From assembly GCA_003576795.1 (NCBI GenBank), contig QEVN01000010.1, forward strand, positions 1 to 42,493: a stretch of DNA of 42,493 nt. Direction: 5' to 3'. A program made the translations under genes and the position numbers. Shown piece by piece: positions 9,253 to 15,695 of this stretch (the stretch's first letter is position 1; each line of letters begins with the position of its first letter). The DNA is from Burkholderiales bacterium (GTDB taxonomy: Bacteria > Pseudomonadota > Gammaproteobacteria > Burkholderiales > Burkholderiaceae_E). The notes under the pieces are model-generated. The model ran no database searches. It saw nothing but the letters and a program-made list of their open reading frames with translations, and was not told where the DNA came from.

Positions 9253-10431
9253 ATGCATTTCCGCCGCCTGAACGAAGTCGACGTCGCCGGCAAGCGCGTA
9301 TTCATCCGCGCGGACCTCAACGTGCCGCAGGACGACGCGCTGCGCATCACCGACGACACGCGCATCCGCGCGTCGCTGCCCGCCATCGAACACTGCCTCG
9401 ACGCCGGCGCGGCCGTGATGGTCACGTCGCACCTGGGGCGCCCCAAGGAGGGCGTGGTGCGCGCCGAAGACTCGCTCGCACCGGTGGCCGCGCGCATCGG
9501 ACAGCTGCTCGGACGCGAAGTGCGCCTGGTGGGCAACTGGGTCGACGGCGGCTTCGAAGTGCGCGCGGGCGAGGTGGTGCTGCTCGAGAACTGCCGCTGC
9601 AACGTCGGCGAGAAGAGCGACGACCCCGGTCTCGCGCGACGGATGGCGGCGCTGTGCGACGTCTACGTGAACGACGCCTTCGGTACCGCGCACCGGGCCG
9701 AGGCGACCACGCATGCGCTCGCGCTGGCGGCGCCGATCGCCTGCGCGGGCCCGCTGATGGCCGCCGAGCTCGATGCGCTGGGGCGCGCGCTGAATTCGCC
9801 GCGCCGCCCGCTGGTGGCGATCGTCGGCGGCTCCAAGGTTTCCACCAAGCTGTCGATCCTCCAGGCGTTGGCCGCGAAAGTCGACCAGCTGATCGTCGGC
9901 GGGGGCATCGCCAATACCTTCCTGCTCGCGGCGGGCTTGCCGATCGGCCGCTCGCTGGCCGAGCGCGAGATGGTGGAGCAGGCGCGCGCGGTGCTCGACG
10001 CGATGTCGGCGCGCGGCGCCGCGGTGCCGATCCCGGTCGACGTGGTCTGCGCGAAGGAGTTCTCCGCGAGCGCGCAGGCGGTCACCAAACCCGTGGAGCA
10101 GGTGTCCGACGACGACCTCGTTCTCGACATCGGTCCGCGCACCGCGGGGGTGCTCGCGGGCTTGCTGAAGCAGGCGGGTACCATCGTCTGGAATGGACCC
10201 GTGGGCGTTTTCGAGTTCGATGCCTTTTCGCACGGCACGCGCGTTGTGGCCGACGCGATCGCGCAATCCGATGCGTACTCGATCGCCGGGGGCGGCGACA
10301 CGGTTGCCGCGATCTCCCGTTTCGGCGTGGCCGACCGCATCGACTACATCTCGACGGGCGGCGGCGCGTTTCTCGAGTTTCTCGAGGGGCGAACCCTGCC
10401 GGCGGTGGAGGCGCTACAGCAACGCGCCTGA
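9253..10431 (+). CDS. pgk: phosphoglycerate kinase
   Basis: A 392-residue glycolytic kinase that converts 1,3-bisphosphoglycerate and ADP to 3-phosphoglycerate and ATP. Seen are the N-domain RADLNVPQ, the substrate-binding [19 protein letters not shown], the hinge segment [13 protein letters not shown] and the nucleotide-site [13 protein letters not shown]. The ATG at 9253 is preceded by GGAGGGA and gives the family's normal N-terminus ([10 protein letters not shown]). An in-frame ATG at 9196 would add 19 atypical residues. In many Burkholderiales pyk follows directly; here about 3.3 kb of other DNA intervenes. Confidence 0.96.
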
Positions 10432-10661: not shown

Positions 10662-11324
10662 ATGACCGATTCGAACGAACAGATTCCCGCCGAGCCGTCG
10701 CATGAAGCGCGCAGGCGCCACCTGTTGCGCCTGGGAGTCGCCGCGCCGATGGTGCTGACCCTGGTGCCCGGGTCTTCGTTCGCCGCTTCCGCCGCAATGT
10801 GCGCGCAGAAACAGAACGGATTCGATCAGCAGCGCGGCGAATTGGCCGGCAAGCTGGTCGAAAGCCCCGATGAATGGATTCGCGTACAGGTGGACATCGT
10901 CACGCTGCGGCCGAACTTCGGCGAAGGGACGATCGAGGGCGAGTACGTGCTCGGCACCGACCAGCAATGGTGGCGCGTCGACTCCGGCGGCTCGATGGGT
11001 CCGCTGGTCGCCTCGGCGAAGAGCACGCCTCGCGTCAGTTACGGCAGCGGCGGCCTCGTCGGCAAGGACACGCCGTCTTCCGACGGTCAATATACGCTGG
11101 CGAACGCCAGCATTGCCGACGTGGTCGAGAAGCGCTGGGCGATGATCAAGGTCGATCCCGATACCGGCCAGCCGCTCGGTTACAGCTGGGAGCCCCAGGC
11201 GGCGGGCGGCATCTTTGCCACGACGGGGTGTGCGGCTTCGCTGATGGGCATCAGCGAGCGATATACCGGCGGTTTCGGAGAAGGGCTCACCGCGTACGTC
11301 CGGCGCGTGCTCGGACTGACCTGA
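10662..11324 (+). CDS. Tat-like exported protein of unknown function, HPr-rel-A cassette
   Basis: A 220-residue protein that begins with a 16-residue hydrophilic segment, then RRRHLLRLG (residues 17-25), a hydrophobic stretch (VAAPMVLTLVP) and Ala-rich probable cleavage sites at about 41-44. This looks like a twin-arginine (Tat) signal. The mature part, about 175 residues, is rich in Gly, Ser and aromatic residues, with WIRVQVDIVTLRPNF, DQQWWRVDSGG and a C-terminal GFGEGLTAYVRRVLGLT. It has only two cysteines, Cys47 next to the cleavage site and Cys190. I do not recognise a family. It is the first gene of a four-gene run with a PqqD-like protein, an HprK-related kinase and a nucleotidyltransferase, so it may be the substrate of those enzymes; that is inference. 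Confidence 0.8.
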   Translation: MTDSNEQIPAEPSHEARRRHLLRLGVAAPMVLTLVPGSSFAASAAMCAQKQNGFDQQRGELAGKLVESPDEWIRVQVDIVTLRPNFGEGTIEGEYVLGTDQQWWRVDSGGSMGPLVASAKSTPRVSYGSGGLVGKDTPSSDGQYTLANASIADVVEKRWAMIKVDPDTGQPLGYSWEPQAAGGIFATTGCAASLMGISERYTGGFGEGLTAYVRRVLGLT

Positions 11325-13749: not shown

Positions 13750-15192
13750 ATGTTCCATCCCGTTCCCCGCGCCACCAAGATCGTGGCCACGCTCGGCCCG
13801 GCGTCGTCCTCGCCCGAGGTGCTCGAGCGCATGCTGCGCGCCGGCGTCAACGTCGTGCGCGTGAACTTCTCGCACGGTACCGCCGAGGAGCACTCGGCGG
13901 TGGTCGCCAGCGTGCGCGAGATCGCCGACCGGATCGGGCAGAGCGTCGGCGTGCTCGCCGACCTGCAGGGCCCGAAGATCCGCATCGGCAAGTTCGCCGA
14001 AGGCAAGATCCAGCTCGAGGTGGGCGACCATTTCGTCTTCGACATCGATTGCGAGCTCGGCAACCAGCAGCGCGTCGGCCTCGACTATCCGGAGCTGGTC
14101 AACGACGTCAGCGTGGGCGACACGCTGCTGCTGAACGACGGACGCGTGACGATGCGCGTCGATCGGGTCGACGCGCGCACGATCGAGTGCACGGTCATGC
14201 AGGGCGGAACGCTGTCGAACCGAAAGGGAATCAATCGGCAGGGCGGGGGGCTGTCGGCGCCCGCGCTCACGTCGAAGGACATGGAGGACATCAAGACCGC
14301 CGTGCGCTTCGAGGCCGATTTCATCGCCGTGTCGTTCCCGAAGAACGCGGCCGACATGTACATGGCGCGCGAACTGGTGCGCGCAGCGGGCGCGCGCGCG
14401 CTGATGATCGCGAAGATCGAGCGCTACGAGGCGATCGGCAACCTGAAGGAGATCCTCCAGGCGAGCGACGGCATCATGGTCGCGCGCGGCGACCTCGCGG
14501 TCGAGGTGGGCGATGCTGCGGTGCCGGCGCTGCAGAAGCGGATGATCCGCATGGCGAAGGACCTGAACAAGGTCACGATCACCGCCACCCAGATGATGGA
14601 GTCGATGATCGAGTCGCCCGTGCCCACGCGCGCCGAGGTGTCCGACGTCGCCAACGCGGTGCTCGACGGAACCGACGCCGTGATGCTGTCGGCCGAGACG
14701 GCCGCCGGGCGCTACCCGGTGGAGACGATCGAGGCGATGGCGCGGGTGTGCGTCGAGGCCGACCGCTCCGAGCGTCATGCGCTGAGCGCCGAGATCCTCG
14801 ACGGCACCTTCACCCGCATCGACCAGGCGATCGCGATGAGCGCGCTCTTCGTGGCGCACCACATGAAGGTGAAGGCGGTGGTCTCGCTCACGCAGTCGGG
14901 CTCCACCGCGCTGTGGATGTCGCGCATCGATTCCGGCGTGCCGATCTACGCGCTCACGCCCGAGGAGCGCAGCCGCCGCCGGATGTGCCTGTACCGCGAG
15001 GTGCACCCGATCGTGATGACCTATCACGCGGTCGAGCGCGAGGCGCTGCTGCTCGAGGCCGAGCAGCGGCTGCTCGACGCGGGGATCGTCGAGAAGGGGG
15101 ACCTGATCGCGCTGACGATCGGCGAGCCGATCGGCAAGTCGGGGGGGACGAATACGCTGAAGATCGTGCGCGTGGGGGAGCATGGGCGCTGA
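13750..15192 (+). CDS. pyk: pyruvate kinase
   Basis: A 480-residue glycolytic enzyme that converts phosphoenolpyruvate and ADP to pyruvate and ATP. Motifs include RATKIVATLGPASSS at the N-terminus, RVNFSHG, DLQGPKIRIG, the active-site MIAKIERYEAIGN, and GIMVARGDLAVEVG. The B domain and the C-terminal regulatory domain (VVSLTQSGSTALWMSR) are complete. The ATG at 13750 gives the normal family start; an upstream in-frame ATG at 13681 would add an Arg-rich leader and overlaps the end of the nucleotidyltransferase. TTAGGAT at 13673-13679 may be a -10, which would make pyk independent of the cassette before it. Confidence 0.96.
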   Translation: MFHPVPRATKIVATLGPASSSPEVLERMLRAGVNVVRVNFSHGTAEEHSAVVASVREIADRIGQSVGVLADLQGPKIRIGKFAEGKIQLEVGDHFVFDIDCELGNQQRVGLDYPELVNDVSVGDTLLLNDGRVTMRVDRVDARTIECTVMQGGTLSNRKGINRQGGGLSAPALTSKDMEDIKTAVRFEADFIAVSFPKNAADMYMARELVRAAGARALMIAKIERYEAIGNLKEILQASDGIMVARGDLAVEVGDAAVPALQKRMIRMAKDLNKVTITATQMMESMIESPVPTRAEVSDVANAVLDGTDAVMLSAETAAGRYPVETIEAMARVCVEADRSERHALSAEILDGTFTRIDQAIAMSALFVAHHMKVKAVVSLTQSGSTALWMSRIDSGVPIYALTPEERSRRRMCLYREVHPIVMTYHAVEREALLLEAEQRLLDAGIVEKGDLIALTIGEPIGKSGGTNTLKIVRVGEHGR

Positions 15193-15208: not shown

Positions 15209-15341
15209 TTCGTTGTCTGCGTTGCGTTTGGCGGGACGTCGTGGTGTGCGCGGGCGAACCTTCCGCGCGGGTTGTGCGAGTGTTTGGTGGCAGTCGCCAG
15301 GTTTCCAGTTTTTCGTACGACGAAGCACAAAGTCGGGTGCT

Positions 15342-15619
15342 CGACGGCGGCGTGCGTGTGGCGGTTTGCGCGGTGAGCGGCGATTCGCGTTTGCGCAGGC
15401 TTCGGAGCCGCCGAGCAGCGCAGCCCTCGCGGGGGAAGTCGGCGAGCACTGTTCGAGCTCCGAAGCGCAAGGCCCCAAAGGGGCCGCAGCGATGAGGGCG
15501 AGTTGCGCAGCCGCCCGCGAGGGCGAGCAGCGCAGGGAACCCCGAAGGGGCGGCTTCGTTGCCTGCGCAAACGCGAATCGCCGCTCACCGCGCAAACCGC
15601 CACACGCACGCCGCCGTCG
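15342..15619. repeat. 278-bp palindromic element with perfect 59-bp terminal inverted repeats
   Basis: Bases 15342-15400 and 15561-15619 are exact reverse complements over 59 bp. The pairing continues imperfectly for about 12 more bases inward (AGCCGCC on one side, GGCGGCT on the other). The 160-bp interior holds a perfect GGCCCC-AAA-GGGGCC hairpin at 15471-15485 and direct repeats of GAGCAGCGCAG and GAGGGCGAG. There is no transposase or convincing gene inside. It fills most of the 559-bp gap between pyk and fba. It may be a member of a dispersed repeat family (a MITE or REP/BIME-like unit); only one copy is in this window. Confidence 0.85.
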
Positions 15620-15695
15620 CGCGCGACCTTGACCGCGAAGTGACGCATGCCGCATCCCGCCGCCGGCCCTCGGCGAGCGGGTCCGCCGCGTAGGC

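Follow-up and report, generated by a model that had tools for sequence, protein, structure and literature searches.

The gene at positions 10662-11324 of the 42,493-nt stretch of DNA analysed here (hereafter the window; contig QEVN01000010.1 of a Burkholderiales bacterium) probably encodes an RRE-guided substrate of the HPr-rel-A system, which would be phosphorylated, perhaps also glycosylated or nucleotidylated, most plausibly at Ser193, and then exported through Tat. The product, here called the cargo, is one of a large group of exported bacterial proteins, not modelled before, that carry one special leader, and the kinase and the nucleotidyltransferase encoded in the same cassette probably decorate such leader-bearing proteins before export. 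What is conserved in the cargo is this leader together with a CxxS motif, rather than its mature domain.

The cargo ORF is confirmed as a real gene and is more than a chance reading frame, because a 57%-identical homologue occupies the equivalent position in a species of the same genus (G066) and 33 more distant homologues keep the fixed residues. Its ATG is preceded by GGCGAG, a ribosome-binding-like sequence, and its third-position GC (0.81) is similar to that of the neighbouring genes. It is the first gene of a four-gene HPr-rel-A cassette, followed in order by genes for a PqqD-like protein (TIGR04353), a kinase (TIGR04352) and an NTP_transf_5 nucleotidyltransferase; as the earlier note had it, 13 bp separate its stop from the GTG start (11338) of the PqqD-like gene. 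The cassette holds these four genes only and sits between pgk and pyk (Table 1). Since the interval between pgk and pyk measures 6-216 bp in six congeners, the cassette was most likely inserted between them, and the insertion is common to one sister species (G066). Further downstream, the pyk-fba intergenic region contains a 74-nt inverted repeat (15339-15412 and 15549-15622), with arms 95% complementary and separated by 136 nt.

Table 1. Features of the HPr-rel-A cassette and its flanks (window positions).
Feature	Position	Strand	Support
pgk, 5' flank of the insertion, outside the system	9253-10431	+	
Cargo ORF, proposed substrate, 220 aa, family C	10662-11324	+	Homologue searches; no Pfam/NCBIfam family
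Conserved Tat-like leader, residues 17-42 (RRRHLLRLGVAAPMVLTLVPGSSFAA)	10710-10787	+	Leader HMM A2 match, 1.8e-8
Cys47, near-invariant (33/35)	10800-10802	+	Family C alignment
C-x-x-S-L motif, C190-L194, with Ser193 (11238-11240) as proposed modification site	11229-11243	+	
PqqD-like stand-alone RRE, TIGR04353	11338-11640	+	40.8 bits (cut-off 35); AF2 pLDDT 90
HprK-related kinase A, TIGR04352	11648-12598	+	297.3 bits (cut-off 200)
NTP_transf_5 nucleotidyltransferase, PF14907	12595-13680	+	E 1.1e-52
pyk, 3' flank of the insertion, outside the system	13750-15192	+	

No Pfam or NCBIfam family describes the cargo, which the earlier note had assigned to no known family, and comparisons with the PDB, by sequence and by fold, returned nothing meaningful; there was likewise no match in plasmids. 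That note had also described a Gly-rich mature part and two cysteines, and indeed Gly makes up 14.5% of the mature part and C47 and C190 are the only cysteines. In the AF2 model, a beta core is predicted at pLDDT 70-90; overall the model is weak (mean pLDDT 55), and neither a match to a solved fold nor an enzymatic fold was recognised from it. Treating the mature part by itself as a family was given up, since a single-sequence search of 74 genomes recovered one relative; cassette and leader were used instead.

The N-terminus of the cargo contains the twin-arginine stretch RRRHLLRLG (residues 17-25), the secretion signal already noticed from the window alone, within a shared leader of approximately 26 residues of the form RRRx[FL]xKxG...P[VI][IL]LT[LV]xS...LA. 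The two arginines are invariant across all aligned cargos, and the leader has the twin Arg, a hydrophobic stretch and an A-x-A-like end. TatC is encoded in the genome of the window (224.8 bits). None of the formal Tat signal models passed its cut-off with the window cargo, and a relative (L086) scored 14.6 against TIGR01409 (cut-off 16.7). Mean pairwise identity within family C, to which the cargo belongs, reaches 0.51 over the leader and 0.56 over the C-terminal motif, compared with 0.21 over the mature part. A leader and a tail that are held while the middle drifts make the pattern expected for a substrate recognised at its leader and modified at its tail.

Other HPr-rel-A cassettes in the bacterial family encode, at the equivalent position, proteins with seemingly unrelated mature parts and a common N-terminus. 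In a sample of 399 genomes from the order, 68 contained a total of 70 kinases over the cut-off, and a leader-bearing ORF neighboured all 70, a count that includes eight kinases with no HMM match, whose leader ORF was recognised by eye, and the second cassette in the genome of the window (L019 3161-4347, G000:C41). In the latter, the cargo gene is split over two frames, with the leader in one and the C-terminal part, ending in VSFTALASFGGANCRDVV, in another, owing to a frameshift or an assembly error. A leader HMM of 29 positions, searched against the genomes of the order, gave 56 matches at E ≤ 2e-5, all less than 2 kb from a kinase. With the threshold relaxed to E ≤ 0.005, 68 matches were counted, of which 61 adjoined a kinase, this count omitting some of the weakest non-adjacent matches between 0.001 and 0.005. 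Matches away from a kinase were at 1.5e-4 or weaker and mostly covered the first 20 positions or so, as generic Tat signals would. Six kinase-adjacent matches, absent from the HMM training set, lay downstream of the cassette (G356, G269, G078, G159, G236 and G199).

A scan of 84,980 species with a kinase alignment yielded 80 named loci, among them loci from Sulfuricella, Nitrotoga, Massilia, Noviherbaspirillum, Duganella, Thiobacillus, Malonomonas rubra, Magnetospira, Chromatiaceae and Sedimenticola. A leader-bearing ORF was found just upstream in 79 of them (69 by HMM and ten by weak match or by eye), covering alpha-, gamma- and Desulfuromonas-type hosts; the exception was a Nitrosospira MAG (L174). 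Because some of these loci also occur in the sample of the order (e.g. L176 and G086), they are an incompletely independent test, the independent ones being the non-Burkholderiales loci and a blind, leader-only search of 200 phylum-wide genomes. This search recovered 22 loci, in 22 genomes outside the order, of which 18 had cargo, PqqD-like gene and kinase, three had cargo and PqqD-like gene only, and one had the cargo alone. The cargo was thus adjoined by a PqqD-like gene at 21 of the 22 loci, and the kinase is present in each of the 22 genomes, including the four in which it lies elsewhere (L290, L291, L293 and L294). At L290, the cargo adjoins a YkgJ-like Cys-cluster protein.

Homologues of the whole cargo followed the same pattern. 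The family C HMM gave 13 full-length matches in the 399 genomes of the order, all beside a kinase, and three further matches plus one leader-region match in 369 genomes of the class, all beside both PqqD-like and kinase genes. No full-length homologue was found in a kinase-less genome in the order, class and phylum samples. An ordinary Tat-exported protein co-inherited with the cassette by chance would agree with the lack of an assigned fold or function for the cargo, but this reading is strongly disfavoured and very improbable, as the leader co-occurs with the cassette at about 170 loci while the mature domains change completely. The earlier proposal that the protein is a substrate of the PqqD-like, kinase and nucleotidyltransferase trio is strongly supported, in that all homologues and almost all leader-bearing relatives adjoin a PqqD-like gene and usually a kinase. 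Of the two outcomes that the note had named as refuting it, homologues widespread without the kinase and a fold with an enzymatic function of its own, neither was seen in the genome samples and the weak fold model; its detail of the conserved C-terminus did not hold (see below).

Gene neighbourhoods, with clusters named from sequence by eye, showed a Wza-like polysaccharide-export gene beside 29 of the 80 named cassettes, a chain-length-regulator-like gene beside 27, a trypsin-like protease gene beside 30 and prmC near 14. The polysaccharide-export neighbours, present at about 40% of these cassettes, are a hint that the system may act at the cell surface or in a matrix; no such genes lie alongside the window cassette. 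At one locus (L022 8591-10197), two tandem family B cargos precede a single PqqD-like/kinase/nucleotidyltransferase set.

The pairing of the cargo with the PqqD-like gene is tighter than that with the kinase, which is what a leader-reading role of the PqqD-like protein would predict. The predicted structure of this protein, a three-stranded sheet with a winged helix, has TbiB1, PqqD and TfuB1 as its best PDB matches (probability 0.9-1.0 for the best), followed by RRE domains of RiPP enzymes; TbiB1 and TfuB1 are RREs that bind lasso-peptide leaders and whose structures were solved with their leader peptides. From this model we predict with high confidence that the PqqD-like protein is an RRE. 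Matches of the PqqD profile to designed repeats were compositional and were discarded. The same pairing could also be explained by a dedicated Tat proofreading chaperone that masks the leader until the cargo folds, with the kinase and nucleotidyltransferase acting elsewhere and the cargo left unmodified, in keeping with a leader that is conserved beyond the needs of Tat and consistently paired with a PqqD-like gene, even at the three loci without adjacent kinase. We consider this explanation improbable, because it does not account for the near-universal kinase and nucleotidyltransferase or for the invariant Ser of CxxS, because the genomes without adjacent kinase still encode one, and because the fold is that of RREs that present substrates to enzymes.

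In the kinase, His110, GxGKxT, SDE and further residues are unchanged in 29 of 29 relatives, and a search with its profile recovers HprK structures (1jb1 at E 4e-4). The kinase is not a member of the HPr kinase/phosphorylase family TIGR00679 (14.8 bits, cut-off 240) or of HprK-related kinase B, TIGR04355 (27 bits, cut-off 200). NTP_transf_5 occurs in about 79 of the 80 named cassettes.

The family C alignment is a set of 35 sequences including cargos from the blind scan. Its 15 members from the order have invariant R18, R19, P29, C47, D70, W72, R74, C190 and S193. All 35 contain CxxS[FLIVM] within their last 40 residues, compared with about one expected in shuffled tails, so that an invariant Ser in a C-terminal motif, which the earlier note had proposed to look for by alignment, does exist. 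This element, C190-A-A-S193-L194, lies just before the basic/aromatic C-terminus ERYTGGFGEGLTAYVRRVLGL, which that note had taken as conserved but which is common only to the G066 homologue and was rejected as a motif. In 32 of the 35 members, 1-9 residues remain after the Ser of CxxS; the window cargo, L027 and L025 have longer tails. In the window cargo and its nearest relative, the Ser is not near-terminal, with 26-27 residues between it and the C-terminus (27 for Ser193). A thioredoxin-like redox role of CxxS is unlikely because the motif is near the extreme C-terminus in most members. It may be a disulfide or folding element, and Cys47 is a possible disulfide partner of Cys190.

Cargos of the other families also carry fixed serines. 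Those of family A lack a CxxS tail and have S[GA]xxS right after the leader, and family B has a Ser fixed near the C-terminus. Since family A fixes S[GA]xxS after the leader while B and C fix a C-terminal Ser, the modified site may differ between families, and a single common site for all of them is not supported. A C-terminal Thr of family A ([YF]Lxx-T-[MWFHQ]) was not adopted as a common target, being absent from many members and perhaps marking a helix end. Serine-rich tails end the cargos of L068, where the cargo is downstream of the cassette, and L074 (CGGTSSSSSSSSSSSSSSSSS; SSASSSSDAASKSASSK).

Alternatively, the kinase might modify a Ser near the mature N-terminus, just after the leader, with CxxS as a structural disulfide or packing element. 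In every cargo family a Ser is retained no more than about 15 residues beyond the leader (S[GA]xxS in 44 of 45 members of family A, ARxS in B and a Ser before C47 in most of C), which would place it near the leader held by the RRE, an arrangement found in many RiPPs. We regard such a site as unlikely, though less so than the chaperone, as the Ser before Cys47 varies in family C (A44 in the window cargo), while S193 is invariant, and as lasso kinases act on a C-terminal Ser (PMC8498205).

With Ser193 as the preferred site, we propose the following sequence of events. The hydrophobic leader strand VLTL, with T33 at its core, would be bound by the PqqD-like RRE, as lasso B1 proteins bind lasso leaders, and the RRE would present the cargo to the HprK-related kinase. 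The kinase would phosphorylate a fixed serine, most likely S193 of the near-C-terminal CxxS[LFVI], and NTP_transf_5 would then add a sugar or nucleotide to this phosphate, in the manner of PsmN in the case of pseudomycoidin. Once modified, the cargo would leave through Tat and its leader would be cut after about A41.

More tentatively, the cargos could form a widespread class in Proteobacteria, consisting of whole Tat-exported proteins with interchangeable mature domains behind a common leader, in which a PqqD-like RRE recognises that leader and a fixed serine acquires a phosphate or phospho-sugar/nucleotide; mature parts do differ widely between cassettes despite the common leader. If so, leader-guided modification would reach beyond small peptides and include whole exported proteins, and a PqqD-type RRE would be linked to Tat export.

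The window cassette is a member of the HPr-rel-A system (TIGR04352 HprK_rel_A and TIGR04353 PqqD_rel_X) by both curated cut-offs. The kinase, PqqD-like protein and nucleotidyltransferase of this system have curated names, but NCBIfam and Pfam model no substrate family for it, and no publication naming the system was found in the literature searched. We consider the leader-bearing cargo to be its missing part. The result is a proposed class of substrates that can be searched for by their leader, along with a candidate residue for the modification, which makes the function of the whole system directly testable.

Among other known systems, those of TorD/DmsD-type Tat chaperones also combine a twin-arginine leader with a dedicated small partner protein, although here the partner has a PqqD/RRE fold. 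In addition, the HPr-rel-A leader signature reaches position 29, whereas generic Tat matches mostly stop near position 20. The cassette kinase resembles HPr kinase/phosphorylase (HprK) in its P-loop and conserved His and Asp. In lasso biosynthesis, leader binding is the task of a stand-alone RRE (B1). HprK homologues place a phosphate on the C-terminal Ser of the precursors, the rest of the sequence mattering little, and a nucleotidyltransferase puts hexoses on that Ser phosphate (reviewed in PMC8498205). The systems of paeninodin and pseudomycoidin, which are phosphorylated or phosphoglycosylated lasso peptides (PMC8498205), share with the cassette the stand-alone RRE (B1), the HprK-type kinase, the nucleotidyltransferase and a substrate that carries a leader and has a Ser close to the C-terminal end. 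Unlike lasso clusters, the cassette lacks the asparagine-synthetase-like cyclase and the B2 protease and is neighboured by pgk and pyk, and membership in a lasso-peptide cluster was rejected because there is no cyclase or protease. Its proposed substrates are secreted proteins of 100-200 aa with a Tat-like leader, as compared with a lasso core of about 20 aa; the mature part of the window cargo, of about 179 aa, is not a short core with a C-terminal Ser. By analogy, the HPr-rel-A cassette may work like the phosphorylated lasso systems without being a lasso cluster.
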